Below are positions 3,214 to 46,936 of a DNA stretch of 64,000 nt, piece by piece. Made by a program: the position numbers and the translations under genes. Source of the stretch: Butyricicoccus sp. OM04-18BH (GTDB lineage: Bacteria; Bacillota; Clostridia; Oscillospirales; Butyricicoccaceae); NCBI RefSeq assembly GCF_003481705.1, contig NZ_QULN01000002.1, forward strand, positions 1 to 64,000, given 5' to 3'. The notes beneath the pieces are model-generated. The model was not told where the DNA came from. It worked only from the letters and a program-made list of their open reading frames with translations, and ran no database searches. Each line of letters begins with the position of its first letter. Position 1 is the first letter of the stretch.

Positions 3214-3602
3214 TGCTGAATATGCTCAAGGGTAAGATTCACCGCGCGACCGTCGTGCAGGCCGAGCTGGATTACGTCGGCTCGATCACGGTCGATCAGG
3301 ATCTTCTGGATGCTGCCGGCATTCTGGAATACGAAAAGGTGCAGATCGTTGACGTCAACAACGGCAGCCGCTTCGAGACGTACACCATCTCGGGCGAGCG
3401 CGGCTCGGGCATGATCTGTCTGAACGGCGCGGCGGCGCGCTGCGTCAGCACGGGCGACAAGGTCATTATCATGTGCTACGCCCAGCTGAGCGCGGAGGAG
3501 GCGAAAACGCACAAGCCGCAGGTCGTTTTTGTCGGCGAGGACAACCGCATCGAGCGCATCACGACCTACGAGAAGCACGGTCTGCTGCGCGATATGGCTT
3601 AA
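3210..3602 (+). CDS. panD: Aspartate 1-decarboxylase (pyruvoyl enzyme)
   Basis: Supplies beta-alanine to PanC. The 130-aa proenzyme has the self-cleavage site Gly24-Ser25 in YVGSITVD; Ser25 becomes the pyruvoyl group. Choosing the first of two adjacent ATGs puts the cleavage site exactly at residues 24/25 as in characterised enzymes. Last gene of the pan operon. Its TAA stop codon is shared with the end of a family A repeat that begins at 3600. Confidence 0.96.
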
Positions 3603-3766
3603 GGCAACACCGCACAATTAAAGCGGCGGTGCTTTGCGGAAATTTTGTGCCCTGACTTTGTTGCAGTTTCACGGTAATACATCAAGTATTACCGCAAAAC
3701 TGCGCCTCGTCAGTACGCAAAATTTACTCGCAAATCACTCTTGTTCAATTATGCGGTATTGTCTTA
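3600..3766 (-). repeat. Family A intergenic palindromic repeat, copy 1
   Basis: About 167 bp bounded by terminal inverted repeats (taaggcaacaccgcacaatt at the left, aattatgcggtattgtctta at the right), with an internal perfect palindrome around ggtaatac...gtattacc. Homologous in inverted orientation to 17613-17756 and 46530-46696. Its left end supplies the panD stop codon. It has no ORF of its own and resembles a non-autonomous miniature element. Confidence 0.8.
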
Positions 3767-9730: not shown

Positions 9731-9925
9731 ATGGACGTTGATTTGATCTTCCGCATCGCGGCGGTCGGCATCCTCGTCGCGGTGCTGGGGCAGCTGCTGA
9801 CGCGGTCGGGACGGGACGAGCAGGCGCTCATGACGACGCTCGCGGGCCTGATCGTGGTACTTATGCTGATCGTCGAGCAGATCAGCCGGCTGTTCAGCAT
9901 GATGAAGAGCGTGTTCGGGTTTTGA
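9731..9925 (+). CDS. spoIIIAC: Stage III sporulation protein AC
   Basis: A 64-aa, two-helix membrane protein of normal family length. Preceded by ggaggggg and followed by spoIIIAD with a 4-nt overlap. Its helices (residues about 5-22 and 33-58) and operon position identify it. Confidence 0.93.
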   Translation: MDVDLIFRIAAVGILVAVLGQLLTRSGRDEQALMTTLAGLIVVLMLIVEQISRLFSMMKSVFGF

Positions 9926-10311
9926 GCGGCACCGGACTGCTCGCGGGCATCGTCGTGCTCGCGCTCGTGCTGTCGCTCACGCTCAAAAAGGACGCACCCG
10001 TCATCGCGTTCCTGCTTGTGCTCGCCGCCGGAGTCGTTCTGCTGCTGCGGCTCGGCGAGGCGGCGCAGAGCACGATGCAGCGCTTTTCCGCGCTGCTCGC
10101 ACGGGGCGATCTCAGCGCAGAGCTGTACGGGCCGGTGCTGCGCGTCGTCGGCATCGCGGTTCTCGTGCGCATCCTCGCGGCGCTCTGCCGCGATGCAGGC
10201 CAGTCCGCGCTTGCGGCGAAGGTGGAGCTTGCCGGGACAGTGCTCGCATTCGGAGCGGCGCTGCCTCTGCTCGAACAGGTGCTGACCTTTCTCACGGAAT
10301 GGACGGTATGA
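9922..10311 (+). CDS. spoIIIAD: Stage III sporulation protein AD (TTG start)
   Basis: A 129-aa polytopic membrane protein with three to four hydrophobic segments. The start is a TTG (TTGA overlap with the AC stop), the only start giving a full-length N-terminus. Operon position between AC and AE. Confidence 0.92.
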   Translation: MSGTGLLAGIVVLALVLSLTLKKDAPVIAFLLVLAAGVVLLLRLGEAAQSTMQRFSALLARGDLSAELYGPVLRVVGIAVLVRILAALCRDAGQSALAAKVELAGTVLAFGAALPLLEQVLTFLTEWTV

Positions 10312-11414
10312 TGAAAAAACGGATGAAAATTCTGGCGGCGGTTTTGCTGCTGCCGCTTGCTCTGTGCCTGTCTGCCGGGGCGGCGGAGACGGACGCGCAG
10401 CGCGAGCGGGACGAGGCGGCGCTGCGGAGCGCGGTGACGGGCGAGGCGCAGCCGTATCTTGCGGGCACGGACGGGCAGGACGTTGCGGACTCGTTCGCGC
10501 GGCTGCTCCGAAACGCCGCGCCGGATGCGAAAAGCGCGTGGGCAAAGGCGGCCGGCAGTCTCGGTACGGCGGCCGGCATCATGATTCTGACAGCGGCGGC
10601 ACGCGGCTTTTCCGAAGCGGCAGGGGGAGCGGCGAACGATGCGGTCGACCTGGCCGGGGCGCTCGGCATCTCCGCTGTGCTGCTCCGGGACTTTTCGGGC
10701 GTGCTGTCGCTCTGCCGGTCGGCGCTCGACGGCATCAGTGTGTTTTCCGCGACGCTCCAGCCGGTCCTCGCGGCGGCGCTCTCGATGGGCGGCAGCGCCG
10801 TGACCGCCACGACGCTTCAGGTCGCCTCCATGTTCGCCTTTGACCTTGTCTTGCGGCTGATCGAAGGTCTGCTCGTGCCGGCGGTGTGCGTATATCTCGC
10901 GGTCACGGTCGTGGATGCGGCCGCCGGGAACGGCGTGCTGCGCGGGCTCGCGGAGGGCATCGGCAGCCTGTCGGCCGGAGCGCTCAAGCTCATACTTACG
11001 CTGTTCACCGCATATCTTGCCGTAGCGGGCGGCGTTTCGGGGAACGTGGACCGCGTCGCGCTCAAAACGGCAAAGTTCGCGGTCTCGGGCGCGGTTCCGG
11101 TGGTCGGCGGCGTCATGTCGGACGCGGCGGAGACCGTTCTGTCGGGTGCGGTGCTGCTGCGCGGCTCAGTCGGCGTTTTCGGCATGATATGCGTCACGGC
11201 GATCTGCCTTGCGCCTTTTGTCCGCGCCGGGGCGTGCTATCTGTGCTTCAAGGCAGGCGCGGCTCTGCTCGCGCCCCTGTGTCCGGACAGCCTCAGGCGT
11301 CTGCTCTCGGGCATCGGCACGGGATTCGGTCTGCTGCTCGGCATGCTGAGCGCCGCCTGCACTATTCTGTATCTGGAACTTGTTTATGCTGTTGCGATGG
11401 TGAAACCGTTATGA
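10308..11414 (+). CDS. spoIIIAE: Stage III sporulation protein AE
   Basis: About 368 aa. A cleavable-looking signal (ILAAVLLLPLALCLSAGAA), an extracytoplasmic stretch, then about seven membrane segments. In-frame ATGs lie at 10299, 10308 and 10311; the 10308 ATG makes an ATGA overlap with the AD stop and is preferred, but the others are possible. AE is a multi-span component of the SpoIIIA channel. Confidence 0.92.
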   Translation: MMKKRMKILAAVLLLPLALCLSAGAAETDAQRERDEAALRSAVTGEAQPYLAGTDGQDVADSFARLLRNAAPDAKSAWAKAAGSLGTAAGIMILTAAARGFSEAAGGAANDAVDLAGALGISAVLLRDFSGVLSLCRSALDGISVFSATLQPVLAAALSMGGSAVTATTLQVASMFAFDLVLRLIEGLLVPAVCVYLAVTVVDAAAGNGVLRGLAEGIGSLSAGALKLILTLFTAYLAVAGGVSGNVDRVALKTAKFAVSGAVPVVGGVMSDAAETVLSGAVLLRGSVGVFGMICVTAICLAPFVRAGACYLCFKAGAALLAPLCPDSLRRLLSGIGTGFGLLLGMLSAACTILYLELVYAVAMVKPL

Positions 11415-11878
11415 ATGAACTGCTGCATACCATTCTGCTGCGCGTGACGCTTGCCGGGGCGGCGTCCGCAGCGGCGCTGCGCATGGCCGGGAGCGGCGCG
11501 ATGCGCGAGACGGTGCGTCTCGCGGCCGGTCTGCTCATGCTCGCGGCTCTTTTACAGCCGCTCGGCAGTCTGCGCTCTGCCGGGTGGAGCGCATCCGCTG
11601 CACCGGACACGCAGGCGATACGCGAGACCAACATGCAAACTGCGATGAGCGCGGTCGCATCGAGCATCGCTAAGGCGCTCGAGAGCCGCGCCGCCGCCGA
11701 GGGCTACGACTGCCGCTTTACGGTCACGATGGCGACCGACGAGAGCGGTATTTTACAGGTAGACCGCGTGACCGTGCACTGCGGTGCGGACGATATTGCG
11801 CATCTCAGAGAGATACAGGAGATTGTGACGAGCGAATGCGGCGTCCCGGCGGAACGGCAGGAGGTGATCGCGCGATGA
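11411..11878 (+). CDS. spoIIIAF: Stage III sporulation protein AF
   Basis: A 155-aa protein with two N-terminal membrane segments followed by a soluble domain with a YscJ/FliF-like ring-building fold in characterised homologues. ATGA overlap with spoIIIAE. The frame is open further upstream (to 10886) inside spoIIIAE, but the ATG at 11411 (MNELLHTILL) gives the expected N-terminus. Confidence 0.92.
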   Translation: MNELLHTILLRVTLAGAASAAALRMAGSGAMRETVRLAAGLLMLAALLQPLGSLRSAGWSASAAPDTQAIRETNMQTAMSAVASSIAKALESRAAAEGYDCRFTVTMATDESGILQVDRVTVHCGADDIAHLREIQEIVTSECGVPAERQEVIAR

Positions 11879-12399
11879 ATACGGAAAAATTGCACGAGCT
11901 TTGCGTGCGGCTGCGGCCGCTCGCGAAAAAATACCGCGCGGCACTCATTGTCCTGCTCGCGGGCGTGCTGCTGCTCGTGTCGGGCGGCCGGGAGGAAACA
12001 TCGGACGCCGCGCAGACGCAGACCGGCGCGGACAGCTTTTCGCTGAGCGATTTCGAGACGCAGCTCTGCTGCCGCCTGTCTGCGATCGACGGTGCAGGCC
12101 GGGTCGAGCTGATGCTCTCGCTCGAGCAGACCGGAGAGGCGGTGTATGCGGTCAACACGAGAGAGACCGGCGGCGCGGCCTCGAGTCGGGAGAGCGATGT
12201 CGCGGTCATTTCCTCGTCGGGATACGGCGAGACCCCCGTGACGGTCAAGAACGTCCTGCCGACGTTCCGCGGCGCGATCGTGCTGTGCGACGGGGCGGAG
12301 AACGCCGCGGTCCGGCTTGCCGTAACGCAGGCTGTCGAGACGGTGTGCGGTCTGACAAGCGACCGCATCACGGTTCTGAAACGCGCCTCCGGCGCATAG
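11875..12399 (+). CDS. spoIIIAG: Stage III sporulation protein AG
   Basis: A 174-aa protein with an N-terminal anchor (about residues 21-38, RAALIVLLAGVLLLVSGG) and a soluble ring-forming domain that builds the large SpoIIIAG ring in the intermembrane space. ATGA overlap with spoIIIAF. The longer open frame from 11836 is ignored because it would run into spoIIIAF. Confidence 0.93.
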   Translation: MNTEKLHELCVRLRPLAKKYRAALIVLLAGVLLLVSGGREETSDAAQTQTGADSFSLSDFETQLCCRLSAIDGAGRVELMLSLEQTGEAVYAVNTRETGGAASSRESDVAVISSSGYGETPVTVKNVLPTFRGAIVLCDGAENAAVRLAVTQAVETVCGLTSDRITVLKRASGA

Positions 12400-12445
12400 A
12401 ACGGTCATATGGAAATCTTTCACCGCATCGAGGAGGGCGAGCGTG

Positions 12446-12973
12446 ATGAAAAAAATCAAGAAACGAGGCGCGGTCTACGGCGTGGTCGCACTGCTGCTGT
12501 GCACGGCGGCGTATCTCAACTGGAGCTATGTCGAGCCGCCGGCGGATCTGCTCCAGACCGACGGGAACAGCGCGGACAGCGCTGCTGCTACATCGGACGA
12601 CGGCGCGGCGGCGGGAGAGGATTATTTCGCGTCCTCGCGTCTGACGAGAGAAAAGGCGCGTGACGAGGCGGTGAGCACGCTGAAGGAGTTGTCCGAGAGC
12701 GCGGATGCGGACGAGACCGCGAAGGAGGATGCCGCCTCGCAGATCTCCGCGCTGGCCGCGGCCTCCGTGCAGGAGGCGAACATCGAGAGCCTCATCCGCG
12801 CAAAGGGCTATGCGGATGCGGTCGTCATGCTCTCGGACGGCTCGGCGAACATCGTGGTCTCGCCGCCGGAGGGCGGCCTGCAGGCGGACGATGTGACGAA
12901 GATACGCGATATCGTGGTCTCCGAGACCGGCATGAGCGCCGGACAGATCAAAATCGTCGAGGCCGGCAGCTGA
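12446..12973 (+). CDS. spoIIIAH: Stage III sporulation protein AH
   Basis: A 175-aa protein with a basic N-terminus, one membrane anchor (about residues 9-25) and a C-terminal EscJ/YscJ-like domain (about 100-175; KGYADAVVMLSDGSANIVV). This domain pairs with forespore SpoIIQ in sporulation. Preceded by gaggaggg; 46 nt after spoIIIAG. Last gene of the spoIIIA operon. Confidence 0.93.
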   Translation: MKKIKKRGAVYGVVALLLCTAAYLNWSYVEPPADLLQTDGNSADSAAATSDDGAAAGEDYFASSRLTREKARDEAVSTLKELSESADADETAKEDAASQISALAAASVQEANIESLIRAKGYADAVVMLSDGSANIVVSPPEGGLQADDVTKIRDIVVSETGMSAGQIKIVEAGS

Positions 12974-13042
12974 CAGCCTCATATTTTTCCTTTTCATTTT
13001 GCGCCCGATGTGATATACTCTTGCTAAAGGAGAGTGAGCACT

Positions 13043-13504
13043 ATGGCGGATCATAAGGAATACTGGTCGACCGAGAGTGACCAGGGCTCTATTCGTATTT
13101 CTGAGGACGTTGTTGCCTCTATCGCGGCGCTTGCGGCCTCGGAGACCGACGGCGTGAGCGGTCTTTATTCCAGCGTAACGCGTGACATCGTCAGCTTTCT
13201 GAGCAAGAAAAACCTGTCCAAGGGCGTGCGCGTCGAGCTGGGCGAGGAGGATACCGTAAAGGTTGAGATCAGCTTTCTCGCGCTGTTCGGTCATAACATC
13301 TGCGAGGTCGCAAGACAGGTGCAGGACAATGTCAAGAGCCAGATCGAGTCGATGACCGGCCTGCATGTGGTCGAGATTAATGTACACGTCGGCGGCGTGA
13401 CCTTCGCGCCTGCGGCAGAGGAAAAGGCCGCAGAGCCGGAGGAAAAGCCGGCGCAGACCGCAGAGAAGCCTGCCGGGGAGCAGGAGGAAAACGCGGCCGA
13501 GTAA
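13043..13504 (+). CDS. Asp23/Gls24-family protein
   Basis: A 153-aa protein with an Asp23/Gls24 (DUF322) domain (about residues 12-118; the SIRISEDVVASIAALAASE start and a GVTF end are typical) and a Glu/Ala/Pro-rich tail. These proteins associate with the cell envelope and respond to envelope stress. The ATG at 13043 follows aaaggaga; a TATACT -10 lies at 13014. It sits between spoIIIAH and nusB, a common clostridial arrangement. Confidence 0.92.
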   Translation: MADHKEYWSTESDQGSIRISEDVVASIAALAASETDGVSGLYSSVTRDIVSFLSKKNLSKGVRVELGEEDTVKVEISFLALFGHNICEVARQVQDNVKSQIESMTGLHVVEINVHVGGVTFAPAAEEKAAEPEEKPAQTAEKPAGEQEENAAE

Positions 13505-13760: not shown

Positions 13761-14237
13761 GTGAACGAGAATGTGATGAGCAGAACAAAAGCAAGAGAGA
13801 TCGCACTGCACCTTATCTTTGAGATGGGTTTTCAGCAGTTTGAGCCGGAAAATCTGGAGGAACGGCTGGACGAGAACATTATGCGCTCGCTCAAAACCGA
13901 TGCCGAGATGTATGCAGGCAGGCTGAGCGGCGAGAACGCCGACTATATCCGCGCAGTCGTCAAGGGCGTTGCGACCCATGTGGACGAGCTTGACGGCGCA
14001 ATCGAGCGCAACGCAAAGGGCTGGAAGCTGAACCGCCTGTCGCGCATGACCAAGGCTGTGCTGCGCCTCGCGATCTATGAGATGCGCTATGTGAGCGACG
14101 TTCCGGTCGGCGTTGCCATCAATGAGGCGGTCGCGCTCGACAAGATCTACGACACCGAGGAGGCTGCTGCCTTCATCAACGGCGTTCTGGGTGCGGTCGC
14201 GCGCGAGAAGCAGGAAAAGGACGAGACCGATGCCTGA
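13761..14237 (+). CDS. nusB: Transcription antitermination factor NusB
   Basis: A 158-aa all-helical RNA-binding protein. The family signature is clear: SRTKAREIALHLIFEMGF at the start, RLSRMTKAVLRLAIYEM and the VPVGVAINEAVALDKIY block near the C-terminus. A GTG start at 13761 has a well spaced agaaggag; the in-frame ATG at 13776 is an alternative. NusB joins NusE on boxA RNA in rRNA antitermination. Overlaps the next gene by 8 nt. Confidence 0.95.
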   Translation: MNENVMSRTKAREIALHLIFEMGFQQFEPENLEERLDENIMRSLKTDAEMYAGRLSGENADYIRAVVKGVATHVDELDGAIERNAKGWKLNRLSRMTKAVLRLAIYEMRYVSDVPVGVAINEAVALDKIYDTEEAAAFINGVLGAVAREKQEKDETDA

Positions 14238-15177
14238 GCGATTTCTGGGGATCGATACGTCCAATTACCGCACCTCGGCTGCGGTCTATGACGCGGAGAC
14301 CGGCGAATGGTGCAACCGCGGCAGTCTGCTGACCGTGCCTGAGGGTGCGATCGGCCTGCGGCAGTCGGACGCGCTGTTTCAGCACACCGTGCATCTGCAT
14401 GAAAGAATCGAAGCTCTGCCGCAGGGCGAGGTGCGCGCCGTCGGCGTCAGCACCCGTCCGCGCGCGGTCGAGGGCTCATATATGCCCTGCTTTCTGGCAG
14501 GAAAAAGCGTCGCGCACAGTGCGGCGCATTTGCTTTCTGTGCCGCTTTTCGAGGTATCCCATCAGCAGGGGCATATCGCGGCGGCGGCGCTGTCCGCCGG
14601 GCGGCTCGACCTGCTGGACAGTCGCTTCCTCGCGTGGCATCTGTCGGGCGGCACGAGCGAACTGCTTTACGTCGAATGCGGCGCGGACGGCCTGCCGGAC
14701 TGTACCTGCATCGGCGGCACGACCGATCTTGCAGCCGGTCAGCTGCTCGACCGGGCGGGCGCACTGCTCGAGCTGCCGTTCCCGTCGGGCGCGGCGCTGG
14801 ATGAGCTTGCGCTGACGGCAGAGCCGCAGAAGGGCTTTCGTCCCAGAGTGACGGACTGCAGATTCTCGCTCTCCGGTATGCAGAACCAGGTGGAAAATAA
14901 ATTTAAGACCGAAAAGCCTGAGGACATGGCGCGCTTCGCTCTTGAAACCGTGGCGAATGCGGTCATCAAGGCGACCGAACAGGCAAAGGAGCGCTATGAC
15001 GTTCCGGTGCTGTGCGCCGGCGGCGTGATGGCGAGCCGGGTCATCCGCGCGCGCATGGAGAAGCGCTTCGGCAGCGGCGTCAGCTTTGCCGAGCCGACGC
15101 TCTCGGGCGATAACGCCGTAGGTGTGGCGGTGCTCGCGGCAAGACTGTACCGAAAAACCGGCGCAGACGGACAGTGA
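14230..15177 (+). CDS. Kae1/TsaD-like ASKHA-fold protein
   Basis: A 315-aa protein of the Kae1/TsaD superfamily: FLGIDTSNYRTSAAVYD at residues 5-21, a metal-site-like SHQQGH (where TsaD has HxEGH), the LSGGTSELLYVE phosphate loop and a final LSGDNAVGVAVLAARL. It is shorter and more diverged than true TsaD and lies between nusB and xseA, so it is probably a paralogue rather than the t6A enzyme. Role unknown. Overlaps nusB by 8 nt. Confidence 0.8.
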   Translation: MPERFLGIDTSNYRTSAAVYDAETGEWCNRGSLLTVPEGAIGLRQSDALFQHTVHLHERIEALPQGEVRAVGVSTRPRAVEGSYMPCFLAGKSVAHSAAHLLSVPLFEVSHQQGHIAAAALSAGRLDLLDSRFLAWHLSGGTSELLYVECGADGLPDCTCIGGTTDLAAGQLLDRAGALLELPFPSGAALDELALTAEPQKGFRPRVTDCRFSLSGMQNQVENKFKTEKPEDMARFALETVANAVIKATEQAKERYDVPVLCAGGVMASRVIRARMEKRFGSGVSFAEPTLSGDNAVGVAVLAARLYRKTGADGQ

Positions 15178-16500: not shown

Positions 16501-16737
16501 ATGGCGGAAAAGACGTTTGAAAGCCAGATGGCGCGGCTCGAAGAGATCGTGCGCCTGCTGGAGCGCGGCGAAGCGCCGCTCGCGGAGAGCATGAAGCTGT
16601 TCGAGGAGGGCACAAAGCTGTCCGCCGCCCTCGGAAAGCTGCTCGACAAGGCGGAACAGAAGGTGACGGTCGTTCAGGAAAATCTCCAGGGCGAGGTAAC
16701 GGAGCGTCCGTTCGACGCAGAGGAGGCGGCAAAATGA
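16501..16737 (+). CDS. xseB: Exodeoxyribonuclease VII small subunit
   Basis: A 78-aa helical protein with the family pattern FESQMARLEEIVRLLERGE. It begins on the base after the xseA stop codon and overlaps ispA by 4 nt (ATGA), so stoichiometry is probably set by translational coupling. Confidence 0.95.
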   Translation: MAEKTFESQMARLEEIVRLLERGEAPLAESMKLFEEGTKLSAALGKLLDKAEQKVTVVQENLQGEVTERPFDAEEAAK

Positions 16738-17615
16738 CATTTTCCGAACAGCTGAGCGCGGATATCGCGCTGATCGAGCCGGCGCTCGAGGGCTATCTCT
16801 CGCGCGAGACGCATGAGGGCTACGACCGCATTTTTGAGGCGGCGAAATATTCCGCGATGGCAGGCGGCAAGCGTCTGCGTCCGGTGATCGTGCTCGAGTT
16901 CTGCCGCCTGCACGGCGGCGACATCAAAAACGCCCTGCCGTTCGCGTGTGCGCTCGAAATGATCCATACCTATTCGCTTATTCACGACGATCTGCCGTGC
17001 ATGGACAACGACGATCTGCGCCGCGGCCGTCCGACCTGCCACAAGGCGTTCGACGAGGCGACGGCAGTGCTCGCCGGTGACGGTCTGCTGACCGCGGCGT
17101 TCGAGACCGCTTCGCAGGCAGACGTTCCGGCGGAGACCGCGCTGCGCTGCATCCGGATTCTGGGCGAGAACGCCGGCATGAACGGCATGATCGGCGGTCA
17201 GGTGCTCGACATGCTCGCGGAGCATCGCCGTATTTCCGAAACCGAGCTGCGCCTGCTCCAGAAGCTCAAGACCGGCTGCCTGCTGCGCGCCGCATGCGAG
17301 CTCGGCTGTGCGGCGGCCGGAAAGACCGATGCGGAGAGCATCGAGGCCGCGCGCGCCTATGGCGATAAGCTCGGCCTTGCCTTCCAGATCGAGGACGATA
17401 TCCTCGACATCGAGGGCGACGAGAAAACGCTCGGCAAGTCCATCGGCAAGGACGCGGCAAGCGAAAAATCGACCTTCCCGTCCCTGCTCGGTCTGGATGC
17501 GTGCCGAAAGCTCGCGGGCGAGCTGACCGAACAGGCCGTCGCGGCGCTCGCGCCGTATGAAGGACGCGCGTTTCTGAAAACGCTCGCGCGCAGCCTGACC
17601 GGCCGCAGGTCATAA
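16734..17615 (+). CDS. ispA: Geranyl/farnesyl diphosphate synthase
   Basis: A 293-aa trans-isoprenyl diphosphate synthase. First Asp-rich motif DDLPCMDNDD near residues 84-93, preceding GGKRLRP near 43-49, second motif QIEDDILD near 219-226. Builds farnesyl diphosphate for undecaprenyl and other isoprenoids. dxs, which feeds the same pathway, lies downstream beyond the OLE RNA. Its TAA stop is also the first triplet of a family A repeat. Confidence 0.95.
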   Translation: MTFSEQLSADIALIEPALEGYLSRETHEGYDRIFEAAKYSAMAGGKRLRPVIVLEFCRLHGGDIKNALPFACALEMIHTYSLIHDDLPCMDNDDLRRGRPTCHKAFDEATAVLAGDGLLTAAFETASQADVPAETALRCIRILGENAGMNGMIGGQVLDMLAEHRRISETELRLLQKLKTGCLLRAACELGCAAAGKTDAESIEAARAYGDKLGLAFQIEDDILDIEGDEKTLGKSIGKDAASEKSTFPSLLGLDACRKLAGELTEQAVAALAPYEGRAFLKTLARSLTGRRS

Positions 17616-17756
17616 GGCAATACGGCATCATTGAACAGGAACGATCTGCGAGCAAGTTTTGCGGTAATACTTGATGTATTACCGTGAAATCGCAGCAAAG
17701 TCAGGACGCGAAATCTCCGCAAAGCGCCCAGTTTTAATTGTGCGGTGATGCCTTAA
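17613..17756 (+). repeat. Family A intergenic palindromic repeat, copy 2
   Basis: About 144 bp. Terminal arms taaggcaatacggcatca and ttgtgcggtgatgcctta, with the central palindrome ggtaatacttgatg/tattacc. Same orientation as 46530-46696. The first three bases are the ispA stop codon. It separates ispA from the OLE RNA promoter. Confidence 0.82.
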
Positions 17757-17789
17757 AATGTTAAAATTCTGCGTATTCTTCGTATAATG

Positions 17790-17818
17790 TTGAAAAACAC
17801 TCGAATTTATGGTAAACT
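17790..17818 (+). promoter_or_regulatory. Promoter of the OLE RNA
   Basis: TTGAAA and TAAACT with a 17-bp spacer, predicting transcription from about 17825. A second TATAAT with a weaker -35 (TTAAAA) lies at 17783-17788. The RNA can therefore be made independently of the nusB-ispA operon. Confidence 0.55.
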
Positions 17819-17824
17819 GAAAAC

Positions 17825-18514
17825 AGTGACGTAGTATCCTAGTCAGTACATGCAATTCCCAAGACGGGCCTAAAAATCCGTAGACGGGCATATCGATGAA
17901 GTCTCTGGTGTTTGCTTCTTACGCCCAGTTTGGGGTGGATGCTGGAGGTTAAGGCTTGCGGGCGCGCTTCAATGGCATGAAGTACCGACCCTCTCGCCGT
18001 GGAGACCCGTGACTGTCGGACACCTATAGCATCCCTTTGGGGTTGATGGATGTCCAACGGCACGGGATGAAACCTGCAATGCGGTGCGGATGACCCTGTG
18101 AGGAATTGATCCCCCTCGCGCTGTTCAGAAACGCTGTGTGCAGTGTAGCCTGCCTTGAGTGGCCATGGTGAATATCGTATCCGCCTGCGGTTTCCCGGCC
18201 AGGAATGCCGCGGGAATTGACGGTTGAAACCATGTCTGCAAAAGAGGCTAAGAATTGTGTTGACTGCTGTGGAAATCACCTAGGCTATTCGTTTACGAGG
18301 CAGGCCGTGGATTGCAGTGCGGACTCAGTGGCAATTCGGTCCCGGTGATGGCAACATCCCGGCACGGACTTTAATGGGAAACCCCCACGGCGGCGACGCG
18401 TGGCAGTTCGCGGGGAAATCCAACCGAACCTCAAGCCGCAAGATTTACTCGGCCTGCCGTCACTGCCTTTTATCTATTTCCGGCGTCGCTCTCCTGCGTA
18501 AAACAGGGGAGCGG
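17825..18514 (+). ncRNA. ole: OLE RNA (ornate, large, extremophilic RNA)
   Basis: About 690 nt between ispA and oapA without a credible ORF, rich in GC and in local inverted repeats, for example the pair catccc...ggatg and a closing hairpin gctctcctg / caggggagc at 18487-18512. Identification rests on three points: length near that of OLE RNAs (about 600 nt); the downstream gene encodes the OLE-associated membrane protein OapA; and the gene order nusB-xseA-xseB-ispA-OLE-oapA-dxs-tlyA-argR-recN is the OLE context known from Bacillota. Known OLE RNA forms a membrane ribonucleoprotein with OapA. Ends are set from the promoter and the last hairpin, so they are approximate. Confidence 0.87.
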
Positions 18515-18568
18515 AGCCGTTTGCCATATGTGACCGACTTGAAAAAAGAACTGAGGAGTCGTATCGTT

Positions 18569-19156
18569 TTGGAGTCAACAGAAAATAAGCAAAAGAAAAA
18601 GCCGCCGCAAAAGCCGTCCGTTGTTAACGTCCGCTGGGTCGTGACGATCATGGCGGTCAGCTTTGTGCTGTCGGTGGTCATGTCGTATATCTCGAATGAA
18701 GCGCTCAACAGCGCAGGCACAGTCCTGTCGTTTGTGGTGCTGTTCTTCTTTATCGGCCTCGGCATCGTGTTCGACATGATCGGCGTGGCCGCGACCTCGG
18801 GCACGGAAAAGGAGTTTCACTCCATGGCGGCGCACAAGGTGCGCGGCGCGCGCGAGGCGGTCTGGATGGTACGCAATGCGGAAAAGGTCTCGAGCATCTG
18901 CAACGATGTCGTGGGCGATATCTGCGGCATTATCTCCGGTGCGACGGGCGCGCTGATCGTGACGCACATCACCGCCGGTACGGACGGCGCGACCAAGGTT
19001 CTGGTCTCGCTCCTGATCACGGGTCTGATTTCTGCGGGTACGATCGGCGGCAAGGCGGCCGGCAAGGGCATCGCTGTCGCTGCGAGCGGCAAGGTGCTTG
19101 CATTGTGCGGCCGCGTTCTGTCCGTGCTGCCGCTCAAGCTGGATAATAAAAGATAA
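18569..19156 (+). CDS. oapA: OLE RNA-associated membrane protein OapA
   Basis: A 195-aa protein with a basic N-terminus (KQKKKPPQKP) and four hydrophobic segments (about residues 26-50, 56-80, 117-137, 146-172), separated by a soluble loop rich in charges. OapA carries OLE RNA to the membrane. The frame is open back to 18317 inside the RNA. I choose the TTG at 18569 because ctgaggag precedes it; a GTG at 18530 (with ggggagcgga further upstream) is the alternative. dxs follows after 27 nt. Confidence 0.83.
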   Translation: MESTENKQKKKPPQKPSVVNVRWVVTIMAVSFVLSVVMSYISNEALNSAGTVLSFVVLFFFIGLGIVFDMIGVAATSGTEKEFHSMAAHKVRGAREAVWMVRNAEKVSSICNDVVGDICGIISGATGALIVTHITAGTDGATKVLVSLLITGLISAGTIGGKAAGKGIAVAASGKVLALCGRVLSVLPLKLDNKR

Positions 19157-19183: not shown

Positions 19184-21049
19184 ATGAAAAGATATGGAAT
19201 TTTGAACAATATAACCAGTCCTGCTGATCTGAAGGGACTGTCGTATGACACGCTCGGCGTGCTGTGTGCGGCGCTGCGCGAGTTTATCGTGGACTCGGTC
19301 TCTCAGACCGGCGGCCATCTCGCCTCCAATCTCGGCATCGTCGAGCTGGCGGTAGCGCTCGAGCGGGAGTTCGACTCCTCGCGCGACCGCATCATCTACG
19401 ATGTCGGCCATCAGTGCTACGTCCACAAGATACTGACCGGCCGCCGCGACCGTTTTTCAACGCTGCGGCAGTACGGCGGTCTCTCCGGCTTTATGAAGCC
19501 GGAGGAGAGCATTACCGACCCGTGCATCACGGGCCACGCCTCGGACTCGGTTTCGGTCGCGCTCGGCATGGCGCACGCGCGCACGCTCAGAAACCAGAAA
19601 TACCACGTTGTCGCGGTCATCGGCGACGGCGCGCTGACCGGCGGCATGGCGTATGAGGCGCTTTCGAATGCCGGCACGTCGGGCGAGCCGCTGCTCGTCG
19701 TTCTGAACGACAACAATATGTCGATCGCGAAGAATGTCGGCGGCCTGAGCCGTCATCTGTCGCGTCTGCGCGTCAGTCCTCGTTATCTGGGTGCGAAGGT
19801 GCGTATCAAGGAAAAGCTCGCGCGCATTCCGGGCGGGCGGGCGCTGACGCAGTCGATCTCGCGCACCAAGGCGCGCATCAAGGGCTTCCTGCTGCCGACG
19901 TCGCTGTTCGAGCAGATGGGATTTACCTATCTCGGCCCGGTGGACGGCCACGACCTCAAGAGCGTCTGCGAGTTGCTGGCACAGGCGAAAAAGATGAAAA
20001 AGCCGGTGCTGCTGCACGTGATGACGCAGAAGGGACGCGGCTACGCGCCGAGCGAGAACAATCCGGAGAAGTATCACGGCGTATCGCAGTTCGACCGCGT
20101 GACGGGCGAATTTCTTGCGAAGAAGAAGGAGGACTTCTCGGCGCGTTTCGGAGCGGAGCTGTGCGGTCTTGCGGACAAGGACGCGCGCATCTGTGCGATC
20201 ACGGCGGCGATGCCGTCGGGCACGGGTCTGACCAGATTCTCCACGCTGCACCGGGACCGCTTCTTTGATGTCGGCATCGCGGAGGAGCATGCGGTCGCTA
20301 TGGCGGCCGGTATGGCGGCGCAGGGACTTGTCCCGGTCGTCGCGCTCTATTCAACGTTTTTACAGCGCGCCTACGACCAGATCGTGCACGATGTCGCGAT
20401 CGAAGGATTGCATGTCGTGTTCTGCATCGACCGCGCGGGCATTGTCGGCGCGGACGGCGCGACCCACAACGGCGTGCTCGATATTGCGTTTCTGCGCTCG
20501 ATCCCGGGCGTTACCATTCTCTGCCCGTCGAGCTTCGCGGAGCTGCGCTCGATGATGACGCGCGCGGTCTATCACGAGAACGGCCCGGTCGCCATCCGCT
20601 ATCCGCGCGGCGGCGAGGGCGCATGGCGCGGCGACACTTCGTCGCAGCCGCTCGCCTGTGTCCGGCAGACTGCCGGTCATGAGGTCACGCTCGTTACGCA
20701 CGGCATTATGATAAACGAAACGCTTGCGGCGGCGGAAAAGCTGGAAAGCCGCGGCGTCCGCACGCAGGTCTGCAAGGTAAACGAACTGAGTCCGGCGCTT
20801 GAGCAGGCGCTTGCGGCGCAGGAGGATGCGCTTTCCGGTCTGTGCGTCGTCGTGGAGGACACGGTCGACAACGGCGGCGTGGGCGAATGGCTTGCCTCGC
20901 ACCGCAGCGGCAGAACGCTGTGCATCAGCACGGGCAACCGCTTCCTGCCGCACGGCAGCGTGAACGATCTGTACCGTCACTGCGGTCTGGACGCGGACGG
21001 TATTGCGGAATTTGTGATGGAACATCGAAAGGAGACCGGTCTTGGCTAA
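19184..21049 (+). CDS. dxs: 1-deoxy-D-xylulose-5-phosphate synthase
   Basis: A 621-aa thiamine diphosphate enzyme condensing pyruvate and glyceraldehyde 3-phosphate, the first step of the MEP isoprenoid pathway. TPP/Mg motif GDGALTGGMAYEAL...NDNNMSI in the first third, the catalytic-Glu segment DVGIAEEHAVAMAAGMA in the middle and a transketolase C-terminal domain. Full length. Overlaps tlyA by 8 nt. Confidence 0.96.
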   Translation: MKRYGILNNITSPADLKGLSYDTLGVLCAALREFIVDSVSQTGGHLASNLGIVELAVALEREFDSSRDRIIYDVGHQCYVHKILTGRRDRFSTLRQYGGLSGFMKPEESITDPCITGHASDSVSVALGMAHARTLRNQKYHVVAVIGDGALTGGMAYEALSNAGTSGEPLLVVLNDNNMSIAKNVGGLSRHLSRLRVSPRYLGAKVRIKEKLARIPGGRALTQSISRTKARIKGFLLPTSLFEQMGFTYLGPVDGHDLKSVCELLAQAKKMKKPVLLHVMTQKGRGYAPSENNPEKYHGVSQFDRVTGEFLAKKKEDFSARFGAELCGLADKDARICAITAAMPSGTGLTRFSTLHRDRFFDVGIAEEHAVAMAAGMAAQGLVPVVALYSTFLQRAYDQIVHDVAIEGLHVVFCIDRAGIVGADGATHNGVLDIAFLRSIPGVTILCPSSFAELRSMMTRAVYHENGPVAIRYPRGGEGAWRGDTSSQPLACVRQTAGHEVTLVTHGIMINETLAAAEKLESRGVRTQVCKVNELSPALEQALAAQEDALSGLCVVVEDTVDNGGVGEWLASHRSGRTLCISTGNRFLPHGSVNDLYRHCGLDADGIAEFVMEHRKETGLG

Positions 21050-21839
21050 GAAACGACTGGATGTACTGCTGTTTGAAAAAGGTCTGTGCCCCTCGCGCGA
21101 ACGCGCGAAGACCGCTATCATGGAGGGCATCGTGTATATCGCCGGACAGAAGGCCGGCAAGGCAGGCGACATGGTGGACGAGAACGCCGAGCTTGAAGTC
21201 CGCGGCAACGACAATGCGTTCGTCTCGCGCGGCGGCAAGAAGATCGAGAAGGCGCTCAATTACTTTGCGATCGACCCGTCCGGCCTGACGGTCATGGACG
21301 TTGGCGCATCGACCGGCGGCTTTACCGACTGCCTGCTGCGGCGCGGCGCGGAGAAGGTCTACTCCATCGACGTCGGCTACGGTCAGCTCGCATGGAGCCT
21401 GCGTCAGGACCCGCGCGTCAAGTGCATGGAGCGCACCAATATCCGCTATGTAACGCCGGATATGCTCGAGGAGACCCCGTCGCTCTGCGTCATCGACGTA
21501 TCGTTCATCTCGCTGAAGCTCGTGCTGCCAGTCGTTGCGGGCCTGCTGACCGAGGACGGCCGCGTGGCCAACCTCATCAAGCCGCAGTTTGAGGCCGGCA
21601 AGGGCAAGGTCGGCAAGAAGGGCGTCGTGCGCGAGCCGGAGATCCATCTGGAAGTGCTCGAGAATTATGTAGAAAACGCACATGCGGCAGGCTTCAAGGT
21701 GCTCGACGTAACGTTTTCGCCCATCAAGGGGCCGGAGGGCAACATTGAATTCCTCGGCTATCTGGCGAAGCAGGGCGAGGAGCGTATTCCGGATCTGGCG
21801 GAGGTTGTGCGTCAGGCGCACGAGGAACTGGACAGCTGA
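21042..21839 (+). CDS. tlyA: TlyA-family RNA 2'-O-methyltransferase
   Basis: A 265-aa protein with an N-terminal S4 RNA-binding domain (residues about 3-62, KKRLDVLLFEKGLCPSRERA) and an FtsJ-type SAM-binding domain (VMDVGASTGGFTDCLL from about residue 84). The family methylates rRNA riboses and is often annotated as hemolysin. Coupled to both dxs and nadK. Confidence 0.92.
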   Translation: MAKKRLDVLLFEKGLCPSRERAKTAIMEGIVYIAGQKAGKAGDMVDENAELEVRGNDNAFVSRGGKKIEKALNYFAIDPSGLTVMDVGASTGGFTDCLLRRGAEKVYSIDVGYGQLAWSLRQDPRVKCMERTNIRYVTPDMLEETPSLCVIDVSFISLKLVLPVVAGLLTEDGRVANLIKPQFEAGKGKVGKKGVVREPEIHLEVLENYVENAHAAGFKVLDVTFSPIKGPEGNIEFLGYLAKQGEERIPDLAEVVRQAHEELDS

Positions 21840-22699
21840 TGCGGACGTTTTTCATCTACCCCAATCTGCGCAAGCAAAGTGCGCGGGAAATTCTGCCTTC
21901 GGTCTGCGAGCGGCTCCGGGGCAGGGATATTCACCTCATCCTGCCCAATCAGATGCGGGGCACCATGCACGCGCTGCATGATGAGGTGATGGCGCTCGAT
22001 TACATGGATACTGCCGAGGCGGTCCGCATCGCGGACGCCGCTGTCGTTCTGGGCGGAGACGGCACCATGCTGCGCATCGCCCGGGCGGCGGCGCAGAACG
22101 AGCTGCCGCTGCTCGGCATCAATGTTGGCCACGTCGGCTTTATGACCGAGCTAGAGCCTGCGGAGCTGGATAAAATGCAGGCGCTGCTCGAGGGGGACTA
22201 TCAGCTCGACAGCCGCATGATGCTGCATGTCGAGGTCGAGCGCCATGGCCGCAGGGTCTATGAAAATGACGCGCTGAACGATATCGTCATTGCAAAGGGC
22301 ACCGCGTTCCGCGTGGTGCGCGTCGGCATATCGGCCGATGGCGAGGAGGTCACGCGCTTCAACGGAGACGGCGTGATCGCGGCGACACCGACCGGCTCGA
22401 CGGCCTACGGCCTGTCCGCAGGCGGCCCGGTGATCGAGCCGAGCGCGGAAAATCTGGCGGTCATTCCCATCTGCGCGCATGCGCTTGCGGCGAAGTCATT
22501 CGTATTCGCACCCGAGCGCACGCTCGCCATCACGGCAGCCTGCGAGGGCGGCAGCGAGGTGTTCATCTCGGCGGACGGCGGACAGGGCTTCGCCGTGCGT
22601 CCGGACGACCGGGTGCTCATCACGCGCTCTGCGCTGCGCACGCGGCTGATCCGCCTCAAGGGCAACAGCTTTTACCGAATACTACAGCAGAAGCTGTGA
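21839..22699 (+). CDS. nadK: NAD kinase
   Basis: A 286-aa enzyme phosphorylating NAD to NADP. Shows GGDGTMLRIAR (about residues 65-75), the NDIV/FNGDGVIAATPTGSTAY region and the C-terminal SADGG motif. Start ATG overlaps the tlyA stop by one base (TGATG). Confidence 0.95.
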   Translation: MRTFFIYPNLRKQSAREILPSVCERLRGRDIHLILPNQMRGTMHALHDEVMALDYMDTAEAVRIADAAVVLGGDGTMLRIARAAAQNELPLLGINVGHVGFMTELEPAELDKMQALLEGDYQLDSRMMLHVEVERHGRRVYENDALNDIVIAKGTAFRVVRVGISADGEEVTRFNGDGVIAATPTGSTAYGLSAGGPVIEPSAENLAVIPICAHALAAKSFVFAPERTLAITAACEGGSEVFISADGGQGFAVRPDDRVLITRSALRTRLIRLKGNSFYRILQQKL

Positions 22700-46529: not shown

Positions 46530-46696
46530 TAAGGCAATACCGCATAATTGGATAAGAGCGACTCGCGAGTAAATTTTGCGTACTGACGAGGCACGGTTTT
46601 GCAGTAATACTTGACGTATTGCCGTGAAATCGCAACAAAGTCAGGATACGAAATTTCCGCAAAGCGCCGCAGCTTTCCTTGTGCGGTGCTGCCTGA
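46530..46696 (+). repeat. Family A intergenic palindromic repeat, copy 3
   Basis: About 167 bp. Arms taaggcaataccgcataatt and ccttgtgcggtgctgcctga, internal cagtaatacttgacgtattgccg palindrome split at its centre, and the tgacgaggc and acaaagtcagga blocks shared with the other full copies. Same orientation as copy 2, inverted relative to copy 1. Confidence 0.82.
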
Positions 46697-46936
46697 AATT
46701 TTCGGCGGGGCAGGGGGAAACAGACGGGCATCAGAAAGGTGTAGACGTGCTCTGACGACCCGGGGAAAACGGGCGGGCAGCGAATGCTACTGCGAAGGAA
46801 TGTCTGCTTTATGCGGACAAATGATAGGATGAAATCGATCGGCGTCGTGTAAAAAACAAAAGAAAAGCAGAAAAGATACCTATTTAATATAATGGGAATA
46901 ATGGTGAGAAGCAGCGCGGGCAGAGGAGGAACAGAA
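46697..46936. other. Intergenic, nothing identified
   Basis: Between the family A repeat and the argG control region. Only a TATAAT without a matching -35 (46888-46893) is visible. No ORF with a ribosome binding site and no structured RNA that I recognise. Confidence 0.5.

Follow-up and report, generated by a model that had tools for sequence, protein, structure and literature searches.

What does the long stretch between ispA and dxs encode in a gut clostridium, and what might its product do there? The question is raised by positions 17790-19156 of a 64,000-nucleotide (nt) DNA from Butyricicoccus sp. OM04-18BH (contig NZ_QULN01000002.1, positions 1 to 64,000; this whole stretch is called the window), where a sequence-only reading had placed an OLE RNA and its partner gene oapA. 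To our knowledge OLE, which is among the largest structured bacterial RNAs, has no known biochemical task. A covariance scan of the whole window with Rfam 15 gave two matches over threshold, one a 5S rRNA and the other OLE (RF01071), which lies at 17810-18479 on the forward strand and scores 459.1 bits (E = 1.5e-131; Rfam gathering score, 50 bits) over model positions 1-616 of 616; place, strand and kind of RNA had all been read correctly. The mature RNA probably spans about 17825-18479. In the family of the window's host, covariance searches found OLE in 50 of 87 genomes, and in the alignment used below the identity of the window copy is 88.6% with its nearest relatives and 62% with the farthest. 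We think it probable that 17790-19156 is a functional ole-oapA pair of Agathobaculum, with an OLE ribonucleoprotein at the membrane that sets OapA activity under stress. RNA identity, folding constraint, features of OapA, linkage and co-occurrence were computed here.

The region had been described as about 690 nt free of open reading frames. No conserved coding frame was found; the RNA is about 640-655 nt rather than 690, and a mechanical open reading frame is present, a GTG frame from 18317 that stays open into oapA. In 29 of 33 relatives the upstream extension of the oapA frame meets a stop at most 34 codons ahead of the match start, and in the other four it runs for 49, 53, 57 and, in a close relative, Agathobaculum butyriciproducens (L012), 98 open codons. 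A protein-coding reading of the RNA region was rejected on this comparison, there being no frame across the RNA common to the 33 relatives at large. The gut-type host, which had been noted as a surprise, stands as described, and the surprise is less well founded because the accessible text of a published survey (PMC11332333) has OLE widespread in Bacillota, with 2,822 matches, and names gut lineages with variant OLE, and because so many genomes of this family carry it. Among the best 20 of 62 matches of a search for print on OLE in Agathobaculum or Butyricicoccus, with supplementary tables outside its scope, there was none; the GTDB survey of PMC11332333 very probably includes such genomes, and the window OLE is a member of a known RNA class that has probably been counted there already. 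What is added here is supporting detail: covariation of P1-P3 within one family, an extra L9.3 palindrome, split loci in which ole is followed by a likely terminator, and a test, inside the family, of the relation to MpfA.

Is the RNA structure maintained by selection? The elements of the RNA are as follows.

17810-18479, forward strand: OLE RNA gene (full Rfam model), by the covariance match of 459.1 bits
17825-17830, forward strand: P1, 5' strand, pairs with 18459-18464; 98.9% of cells paired, changes on both sides in 5 of 6 pairs
17832-17842, forward strand: P2, 5' strand; 17832-17835 with 18284-18287 and 17839-17842 with 18280-18283; in the outer pairs, changes on both sides in 2 of 4
17844-17858, forward strand: P3.1 and P3, 5' strand; 17844-17846 with 18264-18266 and 17850-17858 with 18252-18260
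17863-17882, forward strand: P4 with A-rich loop CCUAAAAAU (bridge B1 in the published structure), from the covariance alignment; loop invariant in 45/45
17902-17948, forward strand: P5 with loop CGCCCAG (bridge B2); 47 nt in 45/45
17953-17998, forward strand: P6 with loop CAAUGGCAUG (bridge B2), from covariance match and alignment
18006-18066, forward strand: P7, from covariance match and pairing analysis
18074-18143, forward strand: P8, with an apical part of 45 nt at 18087-18131 (Rfam consensus, 4 nt); arm of 28-103 nt in the alignment
18152-18249, forward strand: P9 arm with kissing-loop palindrome GGCC at 18197-18200 (bridge B3), from pairing analysis and alignment
18252-18287, forward strand: 3' strands of P3, P3.1 and P2, and P10 (18269-18279), from structure projection and pairing test
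18289-18464, forward strand: OLE domain 2 and the P1 3' strand, from covariance match and pairing analysis; should hold the published OapB site

The window OLE was aligned with 44 others and the Rfam consensus was projected onto the alignment, with P1, P2, P3.1 and P3 added; the Rfam model is unpaired in its first 53 and last 21 positions, that is, in these four helices. Two truncated copies (L060, L061) and eight OLE genomes without a locus (G020, G024, G036, G038, G041, G044, G047, G049) stand outside the alignment. Over all 183 pairs, 89.4% of 8194 cells are paired as against 79.5% in shuffles, pairing drops to 37-44% when partners are slid by 1-3 columns, and 117 of the 183 pairs change on both sides. 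For the added helices P1-P3 the figures are 97.0% of cells and 17 of 26 pairs, neither of which was reached in 500 shuffles. The secondary structure of OLE has been kept through compensatory changes in these 45 sequences (0 of 500 shuffles); the inner P2 sequence CUAG is uninformative because it is nearly invariant.

The features by which OLE RNAs contact one another are also conserved. In the cryo-electron microscopy structure of the OLE dimer described in PMC12286853, the two RNAs are in contact at L4, which is A-rich, at the P5, P6 and P7 loops, and at L9.3, a palindrome. The sequence of the window RNA has the A-rich L4, the complementarity of L5 to L6 and the palindrome. The L4 A-run and the L5 sequence CGCCCAG are invariant (45/45), and because both are invariant neither yields covariation. 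L9.3 reads GGCC in 43/45, GGGC in L039 (within GGGCCC, the palindrome moved by one) and, in L063, GCGC. UGCGCA is the loop sequence of L020, a relative that the alignment does not include. Alternative L9.3 palindromes listed in the same paper include GAUC and AGCU, and GCGC does not occur in its text (PMC12286853). GCGC would be a further change that preserves a self-complementary L9.3, on the basis of two related genomes (L063, L020).

P3 shows a different kind of constraint. All nine of its pairs have compensatory change and 93.3% of its cells are paired. On a tree from which its columns were left out there are 84 pair-state changes, a figure that also counts one-sided changes and lost pairs. 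Its 5' strand occurs in 25 different versions among the 45 sequences, and at least 8 of 9 pairs are kept in 39 of them; six rows have fewer than 8, down to 3/9 in L062, and some of these six look like local misalignment. From P2 to P4 the 5' side measures 26 nt in 43/45 and the 3' side 19 nt in 41/45; across the alignment P7 ranges over 31-64 nt and P8 over 28-103 nt. This is the expected pattern for a strut of fixed length and free sequence. It agrees with a published suggestion that P3 and P3.1, about 12 bp, cross the membrane (PMC12265935, accessible text), and selection of P3 for length and pairing would be expected if P3 crosses it, with domain 1 in the cytoplasm and domain 2 outside.

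Is ole a gene in its own right, or does it belong to the transcript of oapA and dxs? The surroundings of the RNA in the window are these.

16734-17615, forward strand: ispA, upstream neighbour; hidden Markov model (HMM) match
17790-17818, forward strand: sigma-70-type promoter of ole, TTGAAA-17-TAAACT, with TG before the -10; promoter scan, similar in 19 of 27 sequences
18481-18519, forward strand: strong hairpin between ole and oapA, with a short U-run only; folding z -2.62 (116-nt stretch)
18569-19156, forward strand: oapA, TTG start, 195 amino acids, GAGGAG at 18553-18558; open reading frame list, motif and structure model
19184-21049, forward strand: dxs, downstream neighbour; HMM match

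The promoter had been proposed and is present, with TG ahead of the -10. The scanned stretch upstream of ole holds 4 promoter-like sites as against 0.9 in shuffles. Ahead of ole, 19/27 sequences, the window included, have a -35 of the TTGA type and a TANNNT -10, and 8/27 do not; an extended -10 (TGTGNTANAAT) is often part of the arrangement. The count covers 27 of 31 gathered sequences, the other four lacking upstream DNA, and L131-L146 are not in it. The hairpin at 18481-18519 was not scored as a terminator by the terminator scan; it could act as a partial terminator or mark the 3' boundary. In several relatives, too, a hairpin folds right after ole, so partial termination ahead of oapA is possible.

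The end of ole lies 89 nt before the start of oapA in the window, the strong hairpin stands between them, and the distance from OLE match to OapA match is 42-234 bases in 40 of the 49 genomes with both. These are the observations that would suit a long, riboswitch-like leader acting in cis on the oapA-dxs transcript, as opposed to a free, trans-acting RNA. In the remaining genomes the two are 20 kb apart on one contig (G052, with ole behind ispA and oapA before dxs) or on different contigs (eight genomes). The 1.5 kb after ole is without oapA in G050, G052, G053 and G056; in G048 separation is sound from the oapA side only, and G019, G024, G038 and G044 prove no separation because their genes are at or near contig ends. 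Right after ole in L147, a stem of 10 bp with seven consecutive T passes the terminator scan (2 sites in the stretch, as against 0.9 in shuffles), and in L137, L142 and L143 perfect 10-11-bp stems with T-rich tails were read by eye where the scan reported none, their loops exceeding its limit. Promoters of the TTGAAA type lie ahead of ole in L142 and L143, with a weaker one in L137; in L147 no promoter ahead of ole passed the scan. Unlinked copies with terminator-like hairpins make a strong case against a mere cis-acting leader of oapA, which is largely refuted by them and which we regard as very improbable. The ole neighbourhood has been described, in the literature accessible to us, as frequent rather than universal, and separation as such may be known.

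Two separated loci have further features of their own. In G048, two MgtC-family genes stand divergently beside oapA (L151, 579-2011); a link to Mg2+ is possible and was seen once. In G052, where oapA-dxs is relocated, a sodium:alanine symporter gene lies upstream of it and is itself preceded by a glycine riboswitch (L148, 860-961).

What protein does the downstream gene encode? The prediction of a four-helix protein with a lysine-rich start holds: the N-terminus is basic (KQKKKPPQK), and the structure model (mean predicted local distance difference test score, 77.8) has four predicted helices of membrane length. Its best structural match is CNNM/CorB, which suggests a CNNM-like fold, and OapA genes give weak CNNM profile matches of 19-35 bits. 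The DxxxD motif (D113, D117) is invariant in all 21 aligned OapA sequences (the profile was made from 21 of 34 available sequences, the window and 33 loci). Among the libraries scanned there is no curated OapA model in NCBIfam, and Pfam gave only DUF1761 below its cut-off; because curated protein models gave none, the match of this protein to OapA, which the earlier reading had called for and which is borne out without a curated model or named sequence, rests on motif, fold and context. The closest OapA relatives, at 71-81% identity, are in Agathobaculum and close Butyricicoccus genomes, and the closest relatives of the window are Agathobaculum, gut anaerobes.

The comparison with known systems runs on two lines. 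The window matches the OLE of the Halalkalibacterium halodurans and Clostridium acetobutylicum types over 1-616, in its bridge loops and in its ispA/dxs/oapA neighbourhood; it differs from them in the 45-nt apical part of P8 (4 nt in the consensus), in the promoter pattern found in 19/27 copies examined, and in its gut-anaerobe host. Variant 1 and 2 OLE RNAs of the TANB77 and RF39 clades belong to the same RNA family and have short or no P7-P8, as the accessible text of PMC11332333 describes them, whereas the window has full P7, P8 and P9. As for the protein, the window's resembles OapA in its four helices of membrane length, DxxxD, basic N-terminus and position directly after ole. Its predicted membrane-domain fold is that of the CNNM Mg2+ transporters MpfA, CorC and CorB. 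It differs in its four membrane helices and in its domains: the profile scan of the 195 amino acids gave no CBS or CorC_HlyC match, so that the domain set of the MpfA family is incomplete, whereas the family's one CNNM gene that was examined (G007, an Agathobaculum) has the full CNNM, CBS and CorC_HlyC set. The DxxxD motif is absent from CNNM domains.

Partner proteins were sought in relatives of the window, and the 87 family genomes were tallied. OLE was found in 32 of 33 relatives reached through OapA, the exception (G025) having a contig that starts 157 bases before the OapA match. In the tally OapA occurs in 53 genomes and OapB in 41; OapA is found in 49 of the 50 genomes with OLE as against 4 of the 37 without, and OapB in 35/50 as against 6/37. 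A CNNM-domain gene over cut-off is present in 26 of the 50 OLE genomes and in 29 of the 37 others (mean copies 0.54 and 2.0), a count of the CNNM domain only, in which OapA genes over cut-off (G059, G090) are left out and fragments (G064, G084) count as copies. The Fisher p-values of the tally are not independent, because shared descent is ignored and most OLE-negative genomes are listed together (they may be one clade), and absences are soft because the genomes are often incomplete metagenome-assembled genomes. In the one genome with OLE and no OapA (G087) the contig ends about 81 bases after ole; in G086 a contig begins inside the OapA match; in G055 and G057 the DNA upstream of oapA is present, without OLE.

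OapB was identified upstream of infA, after a gene read as map from sequence, a location that we had presumed and that a match to the PDB OapB entry confirmed; its profile was made from 12 of 26 infA loci. A route through the Pfam KOW family was abandoned, the lengths of the listed matches suggesting NusG, L24 and further KOW proteins. An OapC-like YbxF gene stands before rpsL in three Agathobaculum genomes, and the protein of a family relative matches PDB YbxF; in all, the rpsL-adjacent gene was seen in six genomes (L088, L089, L092, L158-L160, with rpoC and rpsL read from sequence). L7Ae-family matches occur in 31 of 33 genomes, a figure that is not a count of OapC because it mixes the OapC-like YbxF with a second L7Ae-family gene beside nusA, which from its position we take to be YlxQ.

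How might these components work together? In published work (PMC12265935, accessible text) OLE RNA forms dimers, is located at the membrane together with OapA and binds OapB, OapC and bS21, and H. halodurans that has lost it is more sensitive to cold, short-chain alcohols, Mg2+ and poor carbon sources. The dimer, the membrane location, the protein binding and the stress phenotypes would be carried over from this work on other species; what we infer is that OapA is a transporter and that the RNA controls it. In the proposed mechanism, the dedicated promoter would drive a transcript of about 640-655 nt, which would adopt the OLE fold and use the conserved loops (L4, L5 with L6, and L9.3) to pair with another OLE RNA. 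P3, fixed in length, would link domain 1 to domain 2 at the membrane, where OapA, the four-helix, CNNM-like membrane protein from the next gene, would anchor the RNA, and OapB and OapC, from ribosomal-protein clusters, would probably complete the particle. OapA probably transports divalent cations (Mg2+), and the particle would most likely sense stress or metal load and set how active OapA is, the RNA taking the regulatory part played by CBS/CorC domains in MpfA-type transporters.

This account has its limits and its rivals. The constant length of P3 was rejected as proof of membrane crossing because P5 is more constant still (47 nt in 45/45) and other variable helices also hold their length. 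The size and conservation of OLE, together with proposals in the accessible text of PMC11332333 and PMC12265935, speak for a ribozyme or a sequestering scaffold (for example for bS21, or making cyclic di-AMP) with OapA only its membrane anchor, and many stretches invariant in the 45 sequences exceed the needs of a simple tether. Such a role is a serious rival, possible though on the unlikely side in our judgement: co-occurrence of OapA with OLE is near perfect and that of OapB is less constant, and the larger number of CNNM-domain genes in family genomes without OLE argues for a transport-linked role. Lastly, the window copy has a poor -10 box, 17 of its 183 consensus pairs are nonstandard, and a dispersed repeat lies just upstream, as might be found in a decayed copy kept by chance. 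Its score, however, falls inside the range of complete OLE matches in the family (396-482 bits), it carries compensatory pairs (U-A at P2, A-U at P1), and its bridge loops and oapA are intact; we give decay hardly any credence.

A membrane particle that sets OapA activity remains our reading of the window, and for the family a more ambitious proposal may be put forward, which as a whole we hold to be doubtful: that OLE is there a self-contained trans-acting gene, that the P3 strut is selected for length and pairing and not for sequence, and that the particle works beside, not instead of, a CNNM transporter in about half of the genomes having it. With 50 OLE-positive and 37 OLE-negative genomes, divergent but alignable copies, some split loci and varying CNNM content, the family is a good natural test bed. 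It gives covariation for P1-P3 and natural stand-alone ole genes with predictable ends, and its related hosts with and without the particle could bear on the contribution of OLE and OapA in cells where a CNNM transporter may be present already.

The wider neighbourhood is typical of OLE, with oapA, dxs, ispA and other reported neighbours in the window. Gene order is nusB, a TsaD-like gene, xseA, xseB, ispA, ole, oapA, dxs, tlyA, nadK, argR, recN and tyrS. The proposed order of nusB-xseA-xseB-ispA before ole and oapA-dxs-tlyA-argR-recN after it is borne out, save that nadK (21839-22699), between tlyA and argR, had been omitted; NAD kinase models match it below their own cut-offs. HMM matches support nusB, xseA, ispA, dxs, tlyA, argR and recN, and xseB (16501-16737) was assigned from the open reading frame list and position only. 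The TsaD/Kae1-like protein between nusB and xseA (14233-15177) scores 105.6 bits against a cut-off of 296.1; it may be a paralogue that serves a different role. Published neighbours of ole include sporulation genes and yqhY; upstream of the cluster, 9922-13504 holds genes like spoIIIAD and spoIIIAE, both below cut-offs, and a gene read as Asp23/YqhY-like, whose sole match, a weak one, was to AmaP (25.5 bits against 55).

A dispersed, palindrome-bearing repeat (core CGGTAATACTTGATGTATTACCG, imperfect inverted ends), resembling a miniature inverted-repeat transposable element, occurs in the window at 17614-17757, at least 3599-3701 (reverse strand) and about 46563-46698, the first of these copies sitting between ispA and the ole promoter. 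Elsewhere it gave 60 match rows in the A. butyriciproducens genome (G012) and matches in 5 of 7 genomes searched.
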